A stretch of DNA of 32,472 bases from a virus: IMG/VR virus record IMGVR_UViG_3300037264_001218, positions 1 through 32,472 of that record; one strand, 5' to 3'. Below the pieces are notes generated by a model. It had not been told where the DNA came from. It saw only the letters and a program-made list of their open reading frames with translations, and ran no database searches. Both the position numbers and the translations under genes were made by a program. Shown in pieces: positions 1,611-11,662 of the stretch (positions within the stretch are counted from its first letter, which is position 1; each line of letters opens with the position of its first letter).

Positions 1611-3584
1611 ATGACTATCAAAACAGCCTACAGCCTGTTGCGTGTGAAACAGGTTGACGAGGAGATGAGGCAGGTTGAAGGCATCGCTACGACGCCAACA
1701 CCTGACAGGATGAACGACGTTGTTGACCCAATGGGGGCTACTTTTGCGGCGGAGATACCGTTGCACCTGTACCACAACGACACCAAGCCCATCGGGCACG
1801 TGAAGCTGGGAAGGCCGACCAAAAAAGGCATACCATTCAAAGCGTGGCTGCCGTTGGTGACGGAGCCGGGTGTGGTCAAGGACCGGGTTGATGAGGCGTG
1901 GCACTCGCTCAAGTATCGGCTACTGGGCGCGGTCTCAATCGGGTTCAAGGTCATCAACGATGCCGTGGAGTACATGGAGAACGGCGGCATCAACTTTTTG
2001 CAGACGGAGATCCTGGAGCTGTCACTGGTAAGCATACCAGCGCAGCCGGATGCCGTCATCACGGGTATCAAGTCAATAGACGACCAACTGCGGGCCGCGT
2101 CAGGTCCAAGGCAGCGTGGCGTCGTCACAATTCACAAGTCTGCCGGCGTCGCGGCTTCGTCTGTACACAAAGGCCGGGAGGCCAAGCAAATGAATCTTCA
2201 GGAAAACATCAGTCAGTTTGAGGCCAAGCGCGTTGCTTCGGCCGCGCGGATGGAAGCCATCATGAAGGCGGCCGGCGATGAAGGCCGCACGCTCAATGAG
2301 GCGGAGGAGGAGGAGTATGACGGGCTCGCCAAAGAGGTCGAAACCGTTGATGCTCATCTGGTTCGGCTGCGTCGTGCTGAATCAGTCGCTGCGGGCAAGG
2401 CGCAGCGCGTCGTCGTGCCGGCAGACTCCGCGGATCAGCAGGCGGCGGCGGATACTGCCCGGTCAGGCTCTGTCATTTCGGTTGACCGCAAGCTGGAGAA
2501 GGGCGTTGAGTTCGCGCGCTACGCGATGTGCGTGGGCGCGGCGAAGGGCAACCTCATGCAAGCGCACGAGATTGCCAAGACCCGATTCAAGGACACGCCG
2601 CGTCTGGCTATCGTCCTGAAGGCAGCCGTTGCCGCGGGCACTACCGTTGACGCGACGTGGGCCGCGCCGTTGCTGGAGTACAATCAGTTTGCGGGCGACT
2701 TCGTTGAGTTTCTCCGCCCAATGACGATTCTCGGCAAGTTCGGCAACAACGGCATTCCGTCCTTGCGGCGGGTTCCGTTCAACATCAACATCCGTGGCCA
2801 GACTTCCGGTGGCGAAGGCTACTGGGTCGGTCAGGGTGCCCCCAAGCCGTTGACCAAGTTCGACTTTGAGAACATCTACCTTGGGTTTGCCAAGGTCGCC
2901 AACATCGCCGTCTTGACGGAGGAGCTGCTGCGGTTCAGCAACCCGTCCGCGGAGCTGTTGGTGCGCGACTCGCTCGCGGCTGCGCTCATCGAGCGGCTGG
3001 ACATCGACTTTGTTGACCCGGCGAAAGCGCTGGTTGCCAACGTGTCTCCGGCGTCCATCACCAACGGCGTGACTGGTATCCCGGCAAGCGGCACTGGCGA
3101 TGCGGCGGACATCCGCGCTGACGTGAAGGCGGCGATGAGTGCCTACATTGCAGCGAACATCAGCCCGACTTCGGCAGTGTGGATCATGCCGGCAACGACG
3201 GCGTTGTCACTTTCGCTCATGGTCAACCCGCTGGGTCAGCCGGAGTTCCCGGGCGTCTCAATGAACGGTGGAACCTTTGGCGGTATTCCGGTGATCGTAT
3301 CGGAGCATGTGCCAACCGTCTCTGCGGGAGCGTTGGTGATCCTTGCGAATGCGCAGGACATCTGGCTGGCGGATGACGGTGGCGTGACTCTGTCAGCAAG
3401 CACAGAGGCGTCGCTGCAGATGCTCGACAACCCGACCAACAACAGCGCGACCGGAACCGCGACCACGATGGTGTCGATGTTCCAGACCAATAGCGTTGCG
3501 CTGCGGGCGGAGCGTTACATCAACTGGAAAAAGCGGCGCGCTCAGGCCGTGCAGGTGATTGAGGACGCGAACTGGGGCGCATAA
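1611..3584 (+). CDS. Fusion of prohead protease (HK97 S78-type) and HK97-fold major capsid protein
   Basis: One 657-residue frame encodes two normally separate proteins. Residues 1 to about 165 match HK97-type prohead proteases: likely catalytic His55 (LYHND), Ser109 (GAVSIGFK) and the conserved ELSLVSIPAQPDA motif (Glu136). From Met194 to about 260 there is a charged coiled coil typical of the scaffolding delta domain. From about 345 to the end is an HK97-like capsid domain (PMTILGKFG, GEGYWVGQGAPKPLTK, NIAVLTEELLRFSNPSAE). Met194 has its own strong ribosome binding site, so free capsid precursor (464 aa) could also be made. The protease would mature the prohead by removing the delta domain. 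It is followed by a strong hairpin and then the portal operon. Confidence 0.93.
   Translation: MTIKTAYSLLRVKQVDEEMRQVEGIATTPTPDRMNDVVDPMGATFAAEIPLHLYHNDTKPIGHVKLGRPTKKGIPFKAWLPLVTEPGVVKDRVDEAWHSLKYRLLGAVSIGFKVINDAVEYMENGGINFLQTEILELSLVSIPAQPDAVITGIKSIDDQLRAASGPRQRGVVTIHKSAGVAASSVHKGREAKQMNLQENISQFEAKRVASAARMEAIMKAAGDEGRTLNEAEEEEYDGLAKEVETVDAHLVRLRRAESVAAGKAQRVVVPADSADQQAAADTARSGSVISVDRKLEKGVEFARYAMCVGAAKGNLMQAHEIAKTRFKDTPRLAIVLKAAVAAGTTVDATWAAPLLEYNQFAGDFVEFLRPMTILGKFGNNGIPSLRRVPFNINIRGQTSGGEGYWVGQGAPKPLTKFDFENIYLGFAKVANIAVLTEELLRFSNPSAELLVRDSLAAALIERLDIDFVDPAKALVANVSPASITNGVTGIPASGTGDAADIRADVKAAMSAYIAANISPTSAVWIMPATTALSLSLMVNPLGQPEFPGVSMNGGTFGGIPVIVSEHVPTVSAGALVILANAQDIWLADDGGVTLSASTEASLQMLDNPTNNSATGTATTMVSMFQTNSVALRAERYINWKKRRAQAVQVIEDANWGA
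2176..2192 (+). promoter_or_regulatory. Internal ribosome binding site and ATG for the capsid half of the fusion
   Basis: GGGAGG at 2176-2181 lies 8 nt before an in-frame ATG at 2190-2192, which begins MNLQENISQFEAKR. This is exactly where a stand-alone HK97-type capsid precursor with a delta domain would begin. Both the sequence and the spacing are near ideal. Initiation here would yield a 464-residue capsid precursor independent of the protease. Confidence 0.7.
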
Positions 3585-3601
3585 GCTCTGGTGGTCTGCG
3601 T

Positions 3602-3633
3602 GGGACCGGGCCGCGTGGCCCGGTCCCATTTTG
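3602..3633 (+). terminator. Strong hairpin, probable intrinsic or partial terminator after the capsid gene
   Basis: A perfect 11-bp stem (GGGACCGGGCC at 3602-3612, GGCCCGGTCCC at 3617-3627) with a GCGT loop is followed by ATTTTG. The T-run is short, so termination may be incomplete. It sits between the capsid gene and the next gene, and no promoter is evident before the portal operon, which fits an attenuator that lowers downstream transcription. Confidence 0.75.
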
Positions 3634-3646
3634 AAAAGGAAAGGCC

Positions 3647-3862
3647 ATGAAACTTGAAGCGGTGAAGATGGTGCGGTATGGGTCCGGGCGTTACGACCCA
3701 GGCACCCAGTTTGAGGTCGATGATGAGCGCCACGTGAGAGTGCTTGTGGCGTCCGGGCTCGCCAAGATACCGGAGGAGCTGAGCAAGAAGCCAACGCGCC
3801 GGCGCCGGGTCAACGGCCAGTACGAGAGGCGTGACATGGTCGCGGACGGGCGGCCGTCGTGA
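3647..3862 (+). CDS. Small basic conserved phage protein upstream of portal
   Basis: This 71-residue protein begins at an ATG preceded by AAAGGAAAGG. The first 40 residues (KLEAVKMVRYGSGRYDPGTQ, then FEVDDE and VLVASGLAKI) follow the pattern of small phage proteins that carry one compact beta domain. The pattern also resembles the 74-residue product at 487. The C-terminus is strongly basic (KKPTRRRR) and probably disordered. It is the first gene after the hairpin and overlaps the portal start (GTGA). Function unknown; a head assembly or nucleic-acid contact role is possible. Confidence 0.75.
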   Translation: MKLEAVKMVRYGSGRYDPGTQFEVDDERHVRVLVASGLAKIPEELSKKPTRRRRVNGQYERRDMVADGRPS

Positions 3863-5418
3863 ACCTGGTCACACGAGTTAGAACAGCGCTCACCAAGGCA
3901 TTGCTATCGCCAATTGGCTCGTGGGGCTGGACGTGGCCGCGGGTCTGGGAGTCCTACCCGGGCGCGTGGCAGCAGAACGTCGTGGTAGACCAGACGCTGG
4001 TGCCGGCATATTGGGCTGTTTTTTCTTGCGTGACGCTGATTGCCAGCGACATCAGCAAGCTACCGGCGCGGGTCATGCAGCGGAACAAGGCCACTGGCGT
4101 GTTCAAGGAGACGTTTTTGCGCCCGGTACTTCAGAAGCCGAATCATTTCCAGACCCACCTGGAGTTCTTTTTCACGTGGATCGTCAGCCAGTTACTGAAC
4201 GGCAACACCTACGTTTTGAAGCGTCGCAACCCGCAGGGGTTCGTTGACGCGATGTACATACTGTCCCCCAACCTAGTGACGCCGTTGATTGCCGACGACG
4301 GCAGCATATTCTACCAGCTGCAGGCGGACAACATCGCTGGCCTCAAGGCGACGGTGACCGTGCCTGCGAGTGAGATCATACACGACCGCATGTACACACT
4401 TCACCACCCACTCATCGGCGTCTCGCCTATCTATGCCTGTGGGGTTGCGGCCATGCAGGGTATGGCCATACAAGGTAACAGTGCGAAGTTCTTTCAGAAC
4501 ATGAGCCGGCCAGGGGGTATCTTGACGGCGCCGGGAGCCATCAGCAACGAGACGGCACTGCGGCTGAAGGAGAGCTGGGAGACAAACTTTGGCGCCGGTA
4601 ACATTGGCAAGGTCGCGGTGCTAGGCGACGGCCTCAAGTATGAAGCCATGACCGTTACGGCTCACGACTCGCAGCTGATTGAGCAGCTGAAGATGACGGC
4701 CGAAATGGTGTGTGCCTGCTACCACGTCCCGGGGTACAAGATTGGGGTTGGCCCGATGCCGACCGTCAGCAACACCGCTGCGCTCAATCAGCAATACTAC
4801 GACCAGTGCCTGCAGTACCCGATTGAGAAGATGGAGCTGCGGCTTGACGAGGGGCTTGAGCTGGCGCCTCCGTTTGAGGTCTGGATGGATCTGTCTGGGC
4901 TTCTGCGTATGGACCCGCAAGCCCGCTACGCTTCGCACAACGAGGCAATCAGGGGCGGCTGGCTCAAGCCGAATGAGGCACGCATTGAGGAGGATCTGGA
5001 GCCGGTAGACGGCGGTGATACTCCGTACATGCAGCAGCAGAACTACTCGTTGTCTGCCCTTGCCAGACGCGACGACGAAGATGCCGAGGGGACAACTGAC
5101 GTTCAGTCCGCAGCGATGAACGGCGCTCAGGTTACGTCGCTGCAGGGGTTGATCACCGCGGCAGCCAACGGCGAGATACCTGTGGGGACGGCTGAGGCAG
5201 CGATTGCGGCGGCTTTCCCGTTGCTGACACCTGCTCAGGTGACCGCCATGATGTCACCGTTGAGGGGGTTTGAGCCTGTGGCTCCTCCTCCGGCGGCGCC
5301 TCCTGCCGCGCCAGAGCCAGAGCCGGAGCCGGCGCCGGGAGAAGGGGAGGAGGACCAGACAGAGTTAGCGCTGTTGGCGTTGTTCCACAAAGCTCCGGAG
5401 TCATACGCCCATGCTTGA
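3859..5418 (+). CDS. Portal protein, HK97 family
   Basis: This 519-residue protein would form the dodecameric ring at the capsid vertex through which DNA is packaged and to which the tail attaches. Family features are clear: DQTLVPAYWAVFSCVTLIAS and DISKLPARV near residues 45-75, NHFQTHLEF, LLNGNTYVLKR, SEIIHDRMY, HPLIGVSPI, the FFQN..RPGGIL stretch and Y.VPGYKIGVG. The start is a GTG overlapping the previous stop. Beyond the usual core there is a C-terminal segment with a helical pattern (ITAAANGEIPVGTAEAAI) and a Pro/Glu-rich tail (PPAAPEPEPEPAPGEGEE). The gene lies downstream of the capsid gene, opposite to the usual order. Confidence 0.95.
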   Translation: MNLVTRVRTALTKALLSPIGSWGWTWPRVWESYPGAWQQNVVVDQTLVPAYWAVFSCVTLIASDISKLPARVMQRNKATGVFKETFLRPVLQKPNHFQTHLEFFFTWIVSQLLNGNTYVLKRRNPQGFVDAMYILSPNLVTPLIADDGSIFYQLQADNIAGLKATVTVPASEIIHDRMYTLHHPLIGVSPIYACGVAAMQGMAIQGNSAKFFQNMSRPGGILTAPGAISNETALRLKESWETNFGAGNIGKVAVLGDGLKYEAMTVTAHDSQLIEQLKMTAEMVCACYHVPGYKIGVGPMPTVSNTAALNQQYYDQCLQYPIEKMELRLDEGLELAPPFEVWMDLSGLLRMDPQARYASHNEAIRGGWLKPNEARIEEDLEPVDGGDTPYMQQQNYSLSALARRDDEDAEGTTDVQSAAMNGAQVTSLQGLITAAANGEIPVGTAEAAIAAAFPLLTPAQVTAMMSPLRGFEPVAPPPAAPPAAPEPEPEPAPGEGEEDQTELALLALFHKAPESYAHA

Positions 5419-6448
5419 TATCACAAGGTTTGTTGCTGGTCTTCACGACTACATTGGCCAAGCGTTTGCGCCGGTTGTTGCGCGGCTCAAGGCGCTGGAG
5501 GAGCGAGCACCACCCAAGGACGGCGCGGACGGCAAGAGCCTCACGCCGGAGGACGTGCGCCCGTTGGTTGAGGAGCTGGTGGCAGCGATACCTCACCCCA
5601 AGGACGGCGCAGACGGTAGGAGCCTCACGCCGGAGGACGTGCGCCCGTTGGTTGAGGAGCTGGTGGCAGCGATACCTCACCCCAAGGACGGCGCAGACGG
5701 TAGGAGCCTCACGCCGGAGGATGTGCGCCCGTTGGTTGAGGAGCTGGTGGCAGCGATACCTCACCCCAAGGACGGCGCGGACGGACGTGGTGTTACTGTT
5801 GCGGAGGTTATCGCGGCGCTACAGCCTACGATTGACGAGGCGCTGGGATCAATCCCAACCCCAAGAGACGGCGTGGACGGTAGGAGCCTCACGCCGGAGG
5901 ATGTGCGCCCGTTGGTTGAGGAGCTGGTGGCGGCAATACCGCGTCCCAAGGACGGCGCGGACGGGCAGAGCGTATCCGTTGACGACGTCAAGCTGATGCT
6001 GGAAGGCTTTGTGGCCAAGTGGGCGCTGGACTTTGAGCGCCGCGCTATGGACCTACTGCAGAGGGTGGCGGACAAGATCCCATTGCCCAAGGACGGGAAG
6101 GATGGCATGGGCTTCGATGACTTTGAGCCGGTGTATGACGGTCATCGCACGCTCGGCTTCCGGATGACGCGCGGTGAGCAGGTGAAGGAGTGGACGTTCA
6201 AGATGCCTTGGCCGTTGGAGATTGGCGTGTATCAGCCGGAGCACGCCTATGAGCGCGGCGACGGCGTGACATACGCTGGCAGCTTCTGGTTTGCGCAGAC
6301 CGACACCACCAAGCGTCCGGGAGACAACAACAGTGACTGGAGACTGGCTGTCAAGAAGGGTCGCGATGGGAAAGACGGGAAAGCTCCTGAGATCACCAAG
6401 CCGGCGGTAGTGCGGTTGACTTCGCATCAGAGCGGAGAGCCAGCATGA
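5411..6448 (+). CDS. Collagen-like repeat phage protein with C-terminal carbohydrate-binding-like module
   Basis: The 345-residue product starts with a short helical segment (1-34). It continues with repeats that each open with a short collagen-like PKDGxDG motif followed by a helix (LTPEDVRPLVEELVAAIP): residues 35-62, 63-90, 91-118, a divergent 119-150, 151-178 and a degenerate one from 179. After PKDGKDG near 225 comes a beta-rich part and a CBM5/12-like module (GVYQPEHAYERGDGVTYAGS...DWRLAVKKG), then GRDGKDGK. Proteins of this build often follow portal genes in proteobacterial phages and are thought to be virion appendages. It overlaps the portal by 8 bp and the next gene by 4 bp. A trimeric fibre projecting from the head or neck is my inference. 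Confidence 0.85.
   Translation: MLDITRFVAGLHDYIGQAFAPVVARLKALEERAPPKDGADGKSLTPEDVRPLVEELVAAIPHPKDGADGRSLTPEDVRPLVEELVAAIPHPKDGADGRSLTPEDVRPLVEELVAAIPHPKDGADGRGVTVAEVIAALQPTIDEALGSIPTPRDGVDGRSLTPEDVRPLVEELVAAIPRPKDGADGQSVSVDDVKLMLEGFVAKWALDFERRAMDLLQRVADKIPLPKDGKDGMGFDDFEPVYDGHRTLGFRMTRGEQVKEWTFKMPWPLEIGVYQPEHAYERGDGVTYAGSFWFAQTDTTKRPGDNNSDWRLAVKKGRDGKDGKAPEITKPAVVRLTSHQSGEPA
5513..5944 (+). repeat. 84-bp tandem coding repeats in collagen-like gene
   Basis: Units at 5513-5596, 5597-5680 and 5681-5764 are almost identical: the second and third differ at one base, the first and second at about three or four. A divergent 96-bp unit (5765-5860) is followed by another close copy (5861-5944). Near identity at the DNA level, synonymous sites included, points to recent duplication or ongoing homogenisation. 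Confidence 0.93.
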
Positions 6449-6777
6449 AGCTCGTGACACTTGAAGCAGCCAAAGCCCACCTCCAGATGGACCATGATCA
6501 GGATGACGAAGACATCGACAGCATCATTGATCAGGCGTCAGCAGCAGTGCTCGACTATTTGAACGGGGGTCAAGACCTGTACGCGGATTCCAGCGGCTTG
6601 ATTCCCAACGACGCGAATGGCGACCCGGATGTGCCATATCAGGTCCGGGCGGCGACACTTCTGCTCATTGGGATTCTGTACAAGGGGAATGATCAAGACA
6701 AGGAGTGGGACCACGGCTATTTGCCGCGGCCGGTTCTGAGCCTGTTGTATCCTTTGCGCACACCGTCATTGGGGTGA
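6445..6777 (+). CDS. Head-tail connector protein, HK97 gp6-like
   Basis: This 110-residue, mostly helical protein has the family pattern: an N-terminal LVTLEAAKAHLQMDHDQDDE, then DIDSIIDQASAAVLDYLN, and a second hydrophobic helix VRAATLLLIGILYKG before a C-terminal YPLRTPSLG. Members form the adaptor ring under the portal. It overlaps the collagen-like gene by 4 bp (ATGA) and precedes the head-closure gene by 3 bp, the usual neighbourhood. Confidence 0.92.
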   Translation: MKLVTLEAAKAHLQMDHDQDDEDIDSIIDQASAAVLDYLNGGQDLYADSSGLIPNDANGDPDVPYQVRAATLLLIGILYKGNDQDKEWDHGYLPRPVLSLLYPLRTPSLG

Positions 6778-6780
6778 GTC

Positions 6781-7119
6781 ATGTTCAAGTTCCGGGAGCT
6801 GCGCCACCGCATAGACATCGAGCGGCGGAGTACAAAGCAAGACCCAGTGACGGGCGAAGTGAGCAAGCCATGGGTCGCGTTTCTGTCCAACGTCCCGGCG
6901 AAGGTCGCGCCATTGAGCGTCCGGGAGTTCATCGCATCGCAGGCGGTGCAAAGCGGGGTCACAGTGCGCGTCACCATCCGCCACCGCGACGGGTTGACCG
7001 CGGATATGCGGATCATACACTGCGGCCGGGTGTACAACCCGCAAGGTTGGTTCGCGGACCCAGACAGCGGGCTTGAGCATTTGACGGCGCCATGTACAGA
7101 AGGGGTTAATGAAGGGTGA
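6781..7119 (+). CDS. Head closure / head-tail joining protein (SPP1 gp16-like)
   Basis: The 112-residue product has the features of the phage head-tail joining family: FRELRHRIDIERRSTKQDPV at the N-terminus, W..f...pAkvaPLSvREFI in the middle and a conserved hydrophobic strand pattern with RDGLTADMRI and GRVYNPQGW near the C-terminus. Members form the beta-barrel ring that closes the head after packaging. It lies between the gp6-like adaptor and, unusually, the sugar/methyl cassette, whose first gene overlaps its stop codon (GTGA). Confidence 0.9.
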   Translation: MFKFRELRHRIDIERRSTKQDPVTGEVSKPWVAFLSNVPAKVAPLSVREFIASQAVQSGVTVRVTIRHRDGLTADMRIIHCGRVYNPQGWFADPDSGLEHLTAPCTEGVNEG

Positions 7120-7631
7120 GCACATGGGCGGTATTGGCTACCGGGCCCAGCATGTCTCGCGCGGTCGCGGAGTCTGTCCGCGGCCGGTGTAAAGCGGTTG
7201 CGGTTTCTGATGCTTACACTCTTGCGCCGTGGGCAGACGCGCTTGTGAGCAACGACGCGATGTGGTGGAAAGTGCATGCGGCCGCTGTGGATACTTTCCC
7301 GGGGCGGAAGTTCGCCGGCTGCAGAGTTCCGGAGATAGAAGCATTGCCCGTCTCACCTGTGTTTGGGTTGGGCTCCAACAGCGGGTTGCAGGGGATGCGC
7401 GTGGCGGTGCTGCTGGGCGCAACGCGGATTCTGCTGCTGGGGTTCGACATGCGCGGTGACCATTTCTTTGGGAAGCACCCGGCGCCGTTGCGCAACACCA
7501 CAACAATCAGGTATCAGATACTGCGCAAGCAGTTTGACAGGTGGCGCGGTTGTCCTGTGATCAACTGTACTCCGGGAAGCGCGTTGAAGCAGTTCCCGTT
7601 CATGACCTTTGAGGAGGCTATGGCGTGCTGA
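7116..7631 (+). CDS. DUF115-like Rossmann-fold protein, possible glycosyltransferase-related
   Basis: This 171-residue protein begins at a GTG overlapping the previous stop. It has STWAVLATGPSMS at the start, a segment DAYTLAPWADALVSNDAMWW, a conserved GLGSNSGLQGMRVAVLLGA and ILLLGFDMRGDHFFGKHPAP. It closes with INCTPGSALKQFPFMTFEEA. This pattern is seen in phage proteins related to the DUF115 group, which includes MptE-like enzymes and the Maf flagellin glycosylation proteins. The precise reaction is not predictable from sequence. Its neighbours are methyltransferases and glycosyltransferases, so a role in handling an activated sugar or in glycan transfer is inferred. It is shorter than Maf proteins, so it is at most the core domain. 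Confidence 0.72.
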   Translation: MSTWAVLATGPSMSRAVAESVRGRCKAVAVSDAYTLAPWADALVSNDAMWWKVHAAAVDTFPGRKFAGCRVPEIEALPVSPVFGLGSNSGLQGMRVAVLLGATRILLLGFDMRGDHFFGKHPAPLRNTTTIRYQILRKQFDRWRGCPVINCTPGSALKQFPFMTFEEAMAC

Positions 7632-8272
7632 ACCTAGCGCGTGCCAAACACTACCGCGCCACATGGGCTTGGGAGCAGATGCAGGGGAGCAAGGCGTGTC
7701 TGAAGTGGAACCTGGAAGACTTGGTATCACTGGACATCGCCATGTCCTTGACGAAGGGGCGCAAGCTCGCGGTACAAGCCGGCGGCAACCTGGGGCTGTT
7801 TCCCAAACGTATGGCGGAGGAGTTCGCTTGCGTGTACACGTTTGAACCTGACCTGGCGCTCATGTCCTGTCTGCGCCACAACGCGCGAGAGCCCAACATC
7901 AAGGCCATACAAGCGGCGTTGGGCGACTCTGACACACCAGTGAGGCTGGAGTGCGGCCGGCGCGATAACAGCGGACGGGCGGTGCACGAGGGGTTGACGT
8001 ATGTTGCCGGCGCGGGGGACGTGCCGCAGGTACGGCTAGACGACATGGACCTGCCCGCCTGTGACCTGATCTATCTTGACATCGAAGGCTATGAGATGCA
8101 CGCGTTGTTGGGGGCGCAGCGGACGGTTGAGCGGTTTCATCCTGTGTTGGCTCTGGAGATCAACGGCAACGTCCTGATGTACAACACCACCAAGGCGGAG
8201 ATACGGGGCTGGATCACCGCGCGCGGGTATCGGCTGGTGACACGTCATCGCGGGGATGACATCTATGTATGA
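7625..8272 (+). CDS. FkbM-family SAM-dependent methyltransferase
   Basis: The 215-residue product carries the FkbM pattern: a SAM-binding motif region with KLAVQAGGNLGLFP (about 47-60), VYTFEPDLALMSCLRHN where the acidic residue would bind the ribose, then QVRLDDMDLPACDLIYLDIE with GYEMHALLGA (motif LDIEGYE), and HPVLALEI. Family members O-methylate sugars or other small groups and occur in polysaccharide loci. The start is a GTG overlapping the preceding gene by 7 bp, so the two are translationally coupled. Placement inside a virion operon suggests that the substrate is a glycan attached to the phage particle, but methylation of a host or small-molecule substrate is equally compatible. Confidence 0.85.
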   Translation: MLNLARAKHYRATWAWEQMQGSKACLKWNLEDLVSLDIAMSLTKGRKLAVQAGGNLGLFPKRMAEEFACVYTFEPDLALMSCLRHNAREPNIKAIQAALGDSDTPVRLECGRRDNSGRAVHEGLTYVAGAGDVPQVRLDDMDLPACDLIYLDIEGYEMHALLGAQRTVERFHPVLALEINGNVLMYNTTKAEIRGWITARGYRLVTRHRGDDIYV

Positions 8273-8984
8273 TTGTGACCAGCGTCGTCAGGACTTCGCG
8301 CTGGCATTCTTCCGGGAGCAGTGCAACGCCTATCCGGAGGTGGATCAGCTTGAAGCCCGTTGTGGCTTCGCTGTTCACCGCGGGCGTTTGGAAGCAGCTG
8401 CCCGGGTGTTGGCTTGTCCCGTGAAAGTCAACCCGCCAAGCTGGCAGCACGGGCGGGTGATCTACGCCATGGCGGGGCGGTTGCTTTCTGTTGACCCGGC
8501 GCCGGGGGTGTTCGTGGACATAGGCACTGCCAAGGGGTTTTCAGCGGTAGTGGCTGGCTGGGCAATTGAGTTGGCCGGGACAGACCACAAGGTGGTGTCG
8601 GTTGACATCGTTGACCCGTCGTTGCGCGTCGTGCGCAACAGTGTCCTTGAGGTGGGCGACGAGCTGTTCACGGTTTCACAGTTCGTTGCCCCATTCATAT
8701 CCCGGAGTGTGAGCACCACGTTCCTTGGGGGTGGCTCCGGGCCAACGTTGGAGAAGCTGACTGAGCGGGTGCGCTTCGCATTTGTGGACGGCAAGCACAG
8801 CCACGCGGCTGTGGTGGCAGATGCGGAGCGGTTACGCGCGCGGCAACAGACGGGCGATGTGATCGTGTTTGATGATGTCCAGATACCGGGGGTGGACAGC
8901 GCAGTGCGAGGGCTGACCGGGTATGACAAAGTGGTTTTGTCCGCCGGCGCGTTGCGCCAGTATGCGCTGGCGACGCGGCAGTGA
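8265..8984 (+). CDS. Class I SAM-dependent methyltransferase
   Basis: I chose the ATG at 8265, which has GGGG 9 nt upstream; the in-frame ATG at 8256 is too close to that motif. The 239-residue protein has a glycine-poor but recognisable motif I (FVDIGTAKGFSA, about 83-94), a motif II acidic strand (VVSVDIVDP) and a later FAFVDGKHSHAAVVADAERL segment followed by GDVIVFDDVQIPGVDSAV. This order is typical of Methyltransf_24-type enzymes acting on sugars or small molecules. It overlaps the FkbM gene by 8 bp and the next gene by 4 bp. The substrate is unknown. Confidence 0.83.
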   Translation: MYDCDQRRQDFALAFFREQCNAYPEVDQLEARCGFAVHRGRLEAAARVLACPVKVNPPSWQHGRVIYAMAGRLLSVDPAPGVFVDIGTAKGFSAVVAGWAIELAGTDHKVVSVDIVDPSLRVVRNSVLEVGDELFTVSQFVAPFISRSVSTTFLGGGSGPTLEKLTERVRFAFVDGKHSHAAVVADAERLRARQQTGDVIVFDDVQIPGVDSAVRGLTGYDKVVLSAGALRQYALATRQ

Positions 8985-9631
8985 CCCTAACTGTGGCATG
9001 TGTGTTTGCCCGGGGGCACGTGCCCTTCACGGCGCAGTACGTTACGCGGCTGAAGAGCATGGCTGACAGGGCGCTCCCTGCGCACCGTTTCGTTTGTCTC
9101 ACTGACCGCGCGGCGGAGCTGCCAGACAGCGTTGAGACAATCAAGATACCGTCTGTTGTTGGTGCGTATGCGTGGTGGGCTAAGTTGCAGTTGTTCAACC
9201 CGGTTCTGGAGTTGTCTGGCCGGGTGTTGTACCTGGATCTGGATGTGTTGTTAGTCGGGGACATGGGGCCCATCATTGGGTATCCGTCTGACTTTGCGCT
9301 TGCGCCGGACACAGCCAGCTTTCAACCGCGCGACGGTAGACAATGTGTGCACCGGTTCAACTCCAGTGTGATGGTATGGGACCACGGTTGCAATCACGAG
9401 CTGTACTGCGACTGGAAGCCGGAGGTGACGAAACGGTTGTGGGGGGATCAGGACTGGATTGGGGCGCAACGTCCGGGCGCGGCTAGTATGCCGGCTGAGT
9501 GGTTCCCGCGGTTGAGCAGTCTTGGGTCGCGGCAGGGGTGGCCCAAAAGCGCGAAGGTGGTGTTGTGCAAGAAGCCCAAGAATGAGCAAGCGGTGCAGGT
9601 GTTCCCGTGGTTTGATGAGGCGTGGCAGTGA
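8981..9631 (+). CDS. GT-A-type glycosyltransferase, GT8-like
   Basis: The 216-residue protein has the main features of a GT8-like enzyme: an N-terminal strand TLTVACVFARG, a segment FVCLTDRAAELP, then RVLYLDLDVLLVGDM with the metal-binding DxD (Asp86-Leu-Asp88), NSSVMVWDHG, and GDQDWIGAQ. It ends with a PWFDEAWQ motif typical of phage-encoded members. The likely role is transfer of a hexose from a nucleotide sugar. The start is a GTG in a GTGA overlap with the previous gene. It appears paralogous to the gene at 10395, which has the same motif order. Confidence 0.85.
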   Translation: MTLTVACVFARGHVPFTAQYVTRLKSMADRALPAHRFVCLTDRAAELPDSVETIKIPSVVGAYAWWAKLQLFNPVLELSGRVLYLDLDVLLVGDMGPIIGYPSDFALAPDTASFQPRDGRQCVHRFNSSVMVWDHGCNHELYCDWKPEVTKRLWGDQDWIGAQRPGAASMPAEWFPRLSSLGSRQGWPKSAKVVLCKKPKNEQAVQVFPWFDEAWQ

Positions 9632-10395
9632 TGGGGGCGCCGGGGTTTGATGACGCACCGATTGTACGCTTGCCAAAGGCGGCTGGGCCCAAGGCGGTGC
9701 AGTTTGTGTACCCGTACTATGACAACCCGGAGTTCATGCGCCGCCACTTCAGGGTGTGGGCGGAGTTCCCACAGGAACTGCGCGCCCATTTGAGTGCTGT
9801 CATTGTTGACGACGGGTCGCCAGACTATCCGGCGAGCGCGGTGTTGAAGGCGGCGGCGCCACTGCCATTTCGCGTGCGGCTGTTTCGGATAGAAGTTGAC
9901 GTGCGCTGGAACTGGCTTGCTGCCCGGAATGTGGCGATGCATCATGTGGAAGACGAGTGGTGCCTGCTCACTGACATGGATCATGTCGTGACCCGTCTAG
10001 TCGCTGAGCAGCTGGTGCACTGTGAACATGATCCGCGGGTGATCTACCGGTTGAGCCGGCGCGAGCACACCTGGGTGAGGATACACCCGCACCCCAATTC
10101 TATGTTCCTGACCCGGCGCATGTTTTGGAAGGCTGGCGGGTATGATGAGACGCTGTCCGGGCACTATGGTACAGACGGTGATTGGCGGCGCCGGCTTGCT
10201 GCGACGGCGCCGGTGAAGACGCTGCCGGAGGAGCTGGAGCGGCACGAGCACACAGGTGATTCTTCAACGGTGCGGTACAAGCGCAAGCAACCGGAGGACG
10301 CGGGGGTGAAGGCACTCGTTGCGGCGCGCAAGGGGGTGAGGGGAGGCTGGCGTCCAAAGGTGTTGTCATTCCCGTACCACGAGGTGGAGCTGTGA
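9631..10395 (+). CDS. GT-A-type glycosyltransferase, GT2-like
   Basis: The ATG at 9631 overlaps the previous stop by one base (TGATG); a GTG at 9622 is an alternative. The 254-residue product has the GT2 layout: FVYPYYDNPEF, AVIVDDGSPDYP (nucleotide-binding Asp60/61), a Rossmann-like strand order, RWNWLAARNVAM, and LLTDMDHVV with the DxD at Asp115-Met-Asp117. A later GGYDETLSGHYGTDGDWRRR resembles the acceptor-side GGfde...ED region of GT2 enzymes. It is flanked by two GT8-like genes, so successive sugar additions to one glycan are likely. The acceptor is not identifiable. Confidence 0.87.
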   Translation: MGAPGFDDAPIVRLPKAAGPKAVQFVYPYYDNPEFMRRHFRVWAEFPQELRAHLSAVIVDDGSPDYPASAVLKAAAPLPFRVRLFRIEVDVRWNWLAARNVAMHHVEDEWCLLTDMDHVVTRLVAEQLVHCEHDPRVIYRLSRREHTWVRIHPHPNSMFLTRRMFWKAGGYDETLSGHYGTDGDWRRRLAATAPVKTLPEELERHEHTGDSSTVRYKRKQPEDAGVKALVAARKGVRGGWRPKVLSFPYHEVEL

Positions 10396-11129
10396 TGCTT
10401 GACATCGTGTGTTGGAAGTGGAAGCCGGCGGCGCGCTACCGTTCGCAGTTCGGGCCGGAGACGGTCAATGTGTTGCAGAGGATGGTGGCCCGGCATTTGC
10501 GTCTGCCGTACCGGTTCAGCTGCATCACCGACGACGCAACGGGGATTGATCCTAGTGTGCGCATCATACCACTGTGGTCTACCTATGGGGGGCTGATCAA
10601 TCCGTCAGGAGCGCACAACCCGTCGTGCTACCGGCGCCTGCGCATGTTTAGTTCAGAAGCGCGGGAGCTGATTGGCGAGCGGATTGTGAGCCTGGATCTG
10701 GATGTGGTGATAACGGGCGACATCACCTCAGTGTTCGACCGCGACGAGGACTTCATCATATGGGGCGGGCAGTCGGTTCAACCGGGCACCAAGGTTCCGT
10801 TCTGTTGGTACAACGGCTCTACCATGATGCTGCGGGCCGGGACTAGGCTGAAGGTGTGGGACGAGTTTGACCCGCAGGTGTCCCCGATGCGGGCGCACCG
10901 GGCCAACTCGCGCGGCAGCGACCAGGGCTGGATCAGCTATTGTCTGGGCCCGGGGGAGCGCATCTGGACAGACCGCGACGGGCTGTATTCATTCCGCAAT
11001 CAGGTGGCGACGCGGCGCGGAGGTCGTCTGCCTGCCGACGCGCGCATGATCATGTTCCACGGTAAAGTTGACCCTTGGAGCCCGGAGGCTGTCAAGATTA
11101 GCCCATGGATCAAGGAGCATTACCAGTGA
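10395..11129 (+). CDS. GT-A-type glycosyltransferase, GT8-like (second copy)
   Basis: The ATG at 10395 has GGAG 5 nt upstream and overlaps the previous stop (TGATG); a GTG at 10392 is the alternative. The 244-residue protein contains DIVCWKWKP, FSCITDDATGI, RIVSLDLDVVITGDI with DxD at Asp101-Leu-Asp103, CWYNGSTMMLRAG, GSDQGWISYCLG and a C-terminal MIMFHGKVDPWS. The FHG..DPW ending is a common signature of phage and bacterial GT8-like enzymes, in which the His helps bind metal and nucleotide. It is the last gene of the cassette, and the next tail gene starts within its stop codon. Confidence 0.86.
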   Translation: MLDIVCWKWKPAARYRSQFGPETVNVLQRMVARHLRLPYRFSCITDDATGIDPSVRIIPLWSTYGGLINPSGAHNPSCYRRLRMFSSEARELIGERIVSLDLDVVITGDITSVFDRDEDFIIWGGQSVQPGTKVPFCWYNGSTMMLRAGTRLKVWDEFDPQVSPMRAHRANSRGSDQGWISYCLGPGERIWTDRDGLYSFRNQVATRRGGRLPADARMIMFHGKVDPWSPEAVKISPWIKEHYQ

Positions 11130-11662
11130 GCCCAATCCTGCCGTCTCTGGGCACGTCCCATTTGAGGGGGTTAGATGAGCTGTTGACAAAGCTGAGGACG
11201 CTAGTGCCAAAACTTCAGAAGAGGGGTTTGCGCGGCGCGATGGGTAAGGGCGCCGGTGTTGTCAAGAAGGCGGCCATTGCTAACGCCAAGGCGATTGATC
11301 GTGGGAGCACCCCACGGATGATCTGGAAAAACATAGCGGTGCAGATGTCCGGGCCACAAGGTAAGCGTGTGAAGGGTATTGTGATGCGCGTTGGTGTGCT
11401 TGGCGGAGCCAGACAACGGGTGAACAATATCGTGAACCGGCGGGCGGGGCGGGTTGGCCAGACATACTCTGTGCTGGGCGACAGCGACAACCCGGGCGGT
11501 GACACTTGGTACTGGCGATTCATTGAGTTTGGTTCGTCTAAGATGCGGGCGCGGCCGTTCATGCTCCCGGCGCTACGGGCTAATGCTGACCGCGCTACTG
11601 ATGTGATCAGGGCGGAGCTGGAGCGGCAGATTGGTAAGCTGGCGTCAAAGGCGGGCCCATGA
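11126..11662 (+). CDS. Tail completion / neck protein, HK97 gp10-like
   Basis: I chose the GTG at 11126 because AAGGAG at 11112-11117 precedes it by 8 nt and it makes a GTGA overlap with the cassette; an ATG at 11105 would overlap by 25 nt. The 178-residue protein has the gp10 pattern: GLDELLTKLRTLVPKL at the N-terminus, GAGVVKKAAIANAKA, a beta region (VMRVGVLGG) and the hallmark YWRFIEFGSSKMRARPFMLP. Family members sit at the head-tail joint or end of the tail tube. Its normal partners (gp6- and gp16-like genes) are 4 kb upstream, separated by the glycan cassette. Confidence 0.92.
   Translation: MSPILPSLGTSHLRGLDELLTKLRTLVPKLQKRGLRGAMGKGAGVVKKAAIANAKAIDRGSTPRMIWKNIAVQMSGPQGKRVKGIVMRVGVLGGARQRVNNIVNRRAGRVGQTYSVLGDSDNPGGDTWYWRFIEFGSSKMRARPFMLPALRANADRATDVIRAELERQIGKLASKAGP

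Follow-up and report, generated by a model that had tools for sequence, protein, structure and literature searches.

Why would a phage keep six genes for sugar and methyl transfer in the middle of the operon that builds its head-tail connector? The question is raised by IMG/VR virus record IMGVR_UViG_3300037264_001218, a 32,472-base stretch, possibly a fragment, which is called the window here. An earlier note on this DNA had described a six-gene cassette between the head closure gene and a gp10-like neck gene, and had proposed that it places a methylated glycan on a virion protein. All six open reading frames (ORFs) are indeed present at 7116-11129. On the evidence given below, we find it probable, though well short of certain, that the cassette is a pathway for virion-protein glycosylation and methylation that is co-expressed with the particle.

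Around the cassette the genes follow in the order major capsid protein (MCP), portal, collagen-like protein, Ad1, Hc1, the six enzyme genes, the gp10-like gene, tail terminator and major tail protein (MTP). The upstream boundary is the head closure protein Hc1 (6781..7119, plus strand; E-values PF05521 3.1e-23, phrog_25 9.7e-26) and the downstream one is the HK97 gp10-like neck protein (11105..11662, plus strand; PF04883 2.2e-7, phrog_5 8.1e-18). From Hc1 through the gp10-like gene the overlaps are, in order, 4, 7, 17, 4, 10, 4 and 25 nucleotides, so the enzyme genes are joined by overlapping starts to each other and to both structural neighbours, as the earlier note had it. Its statement that head closure and gp10 genes are normally adjacent also agrees with our data, since in about 30 cassette-free relatives the site is empty and Hc1 abuts gp10 with a gap near zero or negative. 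GC content and third-position GC (GC3) of the cassette are those of the neighbouring genes; hence, by composition, it is no recent foreign arrival. Promoter- and terminator-like signals in the cassette region showed no excess over shuffled background.

The first enzyme, SiaT (7116..7631, plus strand; phrog_4603 3.9e-30), is a Maf/GT42-fold transferase that had been called DUF115- or Maf-like. By fold this call stands. The best structural match of its AlphaFold2 (AF2) model, which has a predicted local distance difference test score (pLDDT) of 95, is the Maf flagellin glycosyltransferase 5mu5 (Z 13.2, 158 of 171 residues, root-mean-square deviation 3.0 Å), followed by the sialyltransferases Cst-I and Cst-II at Z 10 to 12 (Cst-II Z 11.7), while Foldseek alone gave nothing significant at E <= 0.001. 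By family it does not stand, as the Pfam MptE-like model (PF01973) gives E 0.2 and 11.9 bits, under its cut-off of 34.6, and SiaT is therefore classed as having a Maf-like fold and not as a family member. The fold is the same as that of the Maf enzymes over nearly the whole length, whereas the phage protein is a minimal single domain of 171 residues with 16% identity. Its likeness to the GT42 sialyltransferases is one of fold to Cst-II only, with a PDB sequence profile match of E 0.93. The database name "alpha-2,3-sialyltransferase" is thus a poor guide to sialic acid transfer, Maf being the nearer fold, though no donor pathway was sought. SiaT is likely a protein-priming glycosyltransferase.

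The two methyltransferases and three glycosyltransferases named in the earlier note were recovered as well. FkbM (7625..8272, plus strand; PF05050 6.5e-13, TIGR01444 1.1e-15, PDB 2py6 5e-7) passes the curated cut-offs of PF05050 (49.6 bits; 22.7) and TIGR01444 (58.3 bits; 37.7). The second methyltransferase, MT24, is of the Methyltransf_24/CmcI type (8256..8984, plus strand; PF13578 2.9e-11, PF04989 (RMNT_CmcI) 6.7e-6) and lies above both of these broad cut-offs. In the PDB, the top match by sequence is 6g7d (7.7e-5), presumably a mycobacterial sugar O-methyltransferase, and MT24 resembles rhamnosyl O-methyltransferases, the NCBIfam model NF045824 giving 4.5e-7 but 29.5 bits, far below its cut-off of 400. 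GTa (8981..9631, plus strand; phrog_1962 3.5e-15) is a GT8-like glycosyltransferase and a paralogue of GTc (10392..11129, plus strand; phrog_1962 9.9e-14), a GT8-fold enzyme whose AF2 model (pLDDT 90.9) matches LgtC (1ss9, 5.6e-9) and glycogenin. Between them lies GTb, a GT2-family glycosyltransferase (9622..10395, plus strand; PF00535 3.6e-8) with weak PDB matches to 6yv7, TarP (6h1j) and the flagellin transferase GmaR (22ao). Catalytic motifs are kept in the cassette glycosyltransferases: the DLD motif is invariant in 9 relatives for GTa and in 19 sequences for GTc, and the TDMDH/TDIDH motif of GTb is conserved.

Enzymes of these kinds commonly work on polysaccharides, and the target could instead be the O-antigen or capsule at the host surface; polysaccharide altered in an infected or lysogenic cell would keep out superinfecting phages or stop progeny from readsorbing. 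GTb matches include polymer synthases, the wall teichoic acid glycosyltransferase TarP and, weakly, exopolysaccharide glycosyltransferase models, and the closest fold to GTc is the lipopolysaccharide galactosyltransferase LgtC. Against this stand the protein-glycosyltransferase fold of SiaT, the placement inside the virion operon, where the cassette evolves together with the portal, and the lack of any membrane-like segment in the six proteins, which leaves the hallmarks of Gtr-type O-antigen seroconversion (a membrane-embedded transferase and a flippase) without a counterpart in the cassette. We therefore regard a host-surface role as unlikely. A reading of the cassette as a defence system was also discarded, PADLOC returning no match.

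Relatives were next compared, the loci being retrieved with GTc, FkbM, portal and MTP queries and labelled by iterated profiles. In 36 of 36 loci with a portal-to-gp10 interval and a cassette gene inside it, no member of the cassette families lies elsewhere in the locus (loci of at most about 20 kb, some of the 36 being duplicates of one phage). In the dereplicated census the cassette sits between Hc1 and gp10 in 18 loci, between Ad1 and Hc1 in 12 and before Ad1 or Hc1 in most others. In three loci (L007, L008, L034) cassette genes flank Hc1 on both sides, which shows that the enzyme order persists while Hc1 shifts. The content is nested and modular, from SiaT alone (L041) through SiaT with GTc (L039, L133) and SiaT with MT24 and GTc (L043) to all six genes, found in L009, L010, L034, L049 and the window. 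Among 20 larger records compared by coordinates, nine have their GT2 matches within the cassette, and two with a SiaT-only neck have them elsewhere. Four phages without the cassette (L212, L222, L232, L235) have an MT24-family match, which may be unrelated, between MCP and portal. That some carriers are Proteobacteria follows from copies in Luteimonas saliphila, whose prophage (L133) has the order Hc1-SiaT-GTc-gp10 and a collagen-like ORF next to the portal, and in one Bradyrhizobium genome. A DNA search for the cassette among isolate phages gave no match. The cassette is tied to the head-tail connector operon across many phage lineages.

Selection and divergence point the same way. In close pairs the ratio of nonsynonymous to synonymous substitution rates (dN/dS) is about 0.1 for the cassette genes, which are under purifying selection. 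Mantel correlations with portal divergence are r 0.68 for SiaT, 0.55 for Hc1 and 0.44 for MTP, and not significant for MT24; the co-divergence of SiaT with the portal fits enzymes made together with the virion. A mobile, position-independent cassette, which the earlier note had named as one outcome that would count against its proposal, was looked for and rejected, for the genes stay within the portal-to-gp10 module and SiaT follows the portal at the correlation just given.

These same data bear on whether the slot is a mere hotspot for assorted moron genes without a common function. Some relatives carry slot ORFs without identification, and L041 and L042 are 99-100% identical in portal, Hc1 and SiaT but only 74% in gp10, a drop that points to a recombination joint between SiaT and gp10 at the downstream edge of the slot. 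However, the identifiable slot genes are mostly glycosyltransferases and methyltransferases (the additional ones being often further methyltransferases and sometimes glycosyltransferases), the gene order is conserved, the cassette co-diverges with the portal and purifying selection acts on it, which makes a hotspot without a common function highly improbable.

Phage glycosyltransferases that act on DNA are well known, and the enzymes could in principle glycosylate modified bases of the phage genome. The thymidylate-synthase family includes base hydroxymethylases, and a gene of this family is present in 3 of 20 cassette-bearing records. Two full-cassette contigs, L049 and L010, carry one (G001:33028-33537 and G002:31339-31848), and for these two base modification is therefore a possibility. 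Yet 17 of the 20 records, which may be fragments, show no such gene, the cassette sits in the late structural module, and the SiaT fold is that of a protein or sugar transferase. Of the explanations weighed here, DNA glycosylation is the one to which we give the least credence.

If the glycan is placed on the virion, which protein receives it? In most cassette-bearing phages the gene directly after the portal is collagen-like, and its counterpart in the window (5411..6448, plus strand; portal-associated families phrog_1289 and phrog_2271) is a candidate acceptor. To measure the association, loci picked via portal or MTP and not via the enzymes were dereplicated at 90% portal identity, and a gene was scored as collagen-like when its Gly-X-Y runs summed to at least 12 triplets. 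A collagen-like gene follows the portal in 14 of 18 cassette-bearing lineages and in 5 of 53 cassette-free ones (Fisher 1e-7). Pagel's test of correlated evolution on a quick portal tree gave a likelihood ratio of 15.7 (p 0.003), and p 0.005 and 0.0007 at thresholds of 10 and 15 triplets respectively. Furthermore, phrog_2271 covers both the portal and the collagen-like stretch, which suggests that the fibre may be located at the portal. This tracking of cassette presence by collagen is new here and makes the fibre the leading candidate acceptor.

The earlier note had listed capsid, tail tube and collagen-like fibre as acceptors; of these, comparison lends support to the fibre and none to the other two. 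Neither MCP nor MTP differs in length or composition between lineages with and without the cassette at p < 0.01, in contrast to the collagen content of the fibre region; the composition of portal, Ad1 and Hc1 differs slightly. An acceptor in the major capsid or tail-tube protein, within the same pathway, is nevertheless a possibility, one we rate at clearly less than even. In mycobacteriophages it is the capsid and tail-tube subunits that carry glycans, at their C-termini (Freeman et al. 2023, as cited in PMC12619734 and PMC12894461), and the window together with four cassette-bearing lineages is without a long collagen-like fibre. Provided that virion glycosylation holds at all, the acceptor with the best support is the collagen-like fibre, to which we give about an even chance, followed by capsid or tube.

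Several points weigh against virion glycosylation with the fibre as its target. The collagen-like protein of the window has eight DGxDG units but its Gly-X-Y runs are no longer than 3 triplets, so the window is itself among the exceptions to the trend, and 4 of the 18 cassette-bearing lineages have no collagen-like fibre. The collagen measure was conceived after a first look at the data, for which reason the loci retrieved later were tested separately; there, 4 of 4 loci with the cassette and 1 of 26 without it were collagen-like (p 2e-4), the negatives coming mainly from one clade. An independent-pairs test of collagen against cassette had too few supported pairs, and no enrichment of Ser/Thr was found within the collagen part. 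According to PMC12894461, no protein glycan was detectable in a phage that has a putative methyltransferase linked to glycosylation. The glycan on the virion is a putative one. The proposal of a methylated virion glycan is partly supported: the enzymes are suited to such a glycan and are encoded so as to be made with the virion.

Hydroxylysine-type modification of the collagen was considered and gained no support, as PF13640 (2OG-Fe(II) oxygenase), the sole oxygenase family sought, occurs in 1 of 20 cassette-bearing records, which may be fragments. A motif of the approximate form YxxGDxVTYxGSxWxA...DWxLxVKRGRDGKDG is common to the C-terminal parts of the collagen-like proteins, and the C-terminal part of 5411-6448 has a very weak resemblance to CBM5/12 (E 0.13). 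As for the remaining genes on this side of the cassette, the portal lies at 3859-5418, Ad1 at 6445-6777 and the MCP, with a fused protease, at 1611-3584. The protease-fused capsid gene precedes the portal in the window (1611-5418), and the order in Pseudomonas phage D3 is the opposite (portal, protease, capsid). Large ORFs between portal and Ad1 were seen in L039 (6884-10426), L037 (3298-7305) and L090 (4336-7014); three portal-Ad1 ORFs tested (622 and 552 aa in L039, 892 aa in L090) had no PHROG match.

Known systems were then compared with the cassette. In phage P1 (NC_005856 79592-82150, L255) the pmgO-pmgP-ppp-pmgQ stretch holds homologues: pmgO and pmgP are homologous to SiaT (3.9e-48 and 4e-18) and pmgQ is a GT8-like homologue (1.2e-38), all among genes annotated "putative morphogenetic" behind an annotated late promoter. 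Unlike the window, P1 shows no FkbM, MT24 or GTb in this stretch, which lies outside any neck module. Knockdown and deletion found pmgO, pmgP and pmgQ nonessential for plaque formation (PMC10695390), as expected for a decoration, and the idea is thereby testable in E. coli. In phage D3 (orf7, orf12-13) a homologue of SiaT precedes Ad1 and the Hc1-gp10 slot holds a gene annotated as a methyltransferase, but the cassette glycosyltransferases were not detected there and the interval is without a collagen-like ORF. Tetraselmis viridis virus S20 carries two SiaT genes, GTb, FkbM and GTc near Hc1 and gp10, although its cassette lies between the capsid genes and Hc1 in permuted order.

The closest functional parallel is O-glycosylation in mycobacteriophages, where, according to PMC12619734 and PMC12894461, phage-encoded glycosyltransferases, with methyltransferases implicated, are thought to modify virion proteins; the work of Freeman et al. 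2023 is cited also in PMC10568470. The listed tblastn matches to FkbM, GTb and GTc include no mycobacteriophage. The present cassette differs further: it begins with a Maf-fold enzyme, is fixed within the neck operon and has a collagen-like fibre as candidate acceptor of a putative glycan. No phage cassette joining FkbM, glycosyltransferases and structural genes was found in the open-access literature.

Together, virion-protein glycosylation would proceed as follows. A cytosolic, phage-encoded pathway would decorate a virion protein with a methylated oligosaccharide during particle assembly, a timing suggested by the operon structure. In the manner of Maf acting on flagellin, SiaT would link the first sugar to a side chain of the protein; the glycan would then be lengthened from host nucleotide sugars by the GT8- and GT2-like enzymes and capped by the two O-methyltransferases. 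With less certainty, the acceptor may be the collagen-like fibre whose gene immediately follows that of the portal, and the glycan might shield or tune the particle surface without being required for assembly. More tentatively still, and in our view with the chances rather against it, tailed phages, those of Proteobacteria included, would possess a dedicated collagen-glycosylation pathway, in which a neck-operon cassette attaches a methylated glycan to a portal-anchored collagen-like fibre. Collagen glycosylation in giant viruses and the bacterial spore-surface collagens with methylated glycans would then be possible counterparts.

Phage virion glycosylation has so far been demonstrated mainly in mycobacteriophages, and the neck-operon cassette would be a new and widespread form of putative virion glycosylation. 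It yields a specific hypothesis on the acceptor and suggests what the P1 genes, so far annotated just as "putative morphogenetic", may do. Given a position-locked, modular cassette in many uncultured phages, with homologues in P1 and D3, sugar-coated particles may be far commoner than mycobacteriophages suggest, and because surface glycans can change antibody recognition and adsorption, this would be relevant to phage ecology and therapy.

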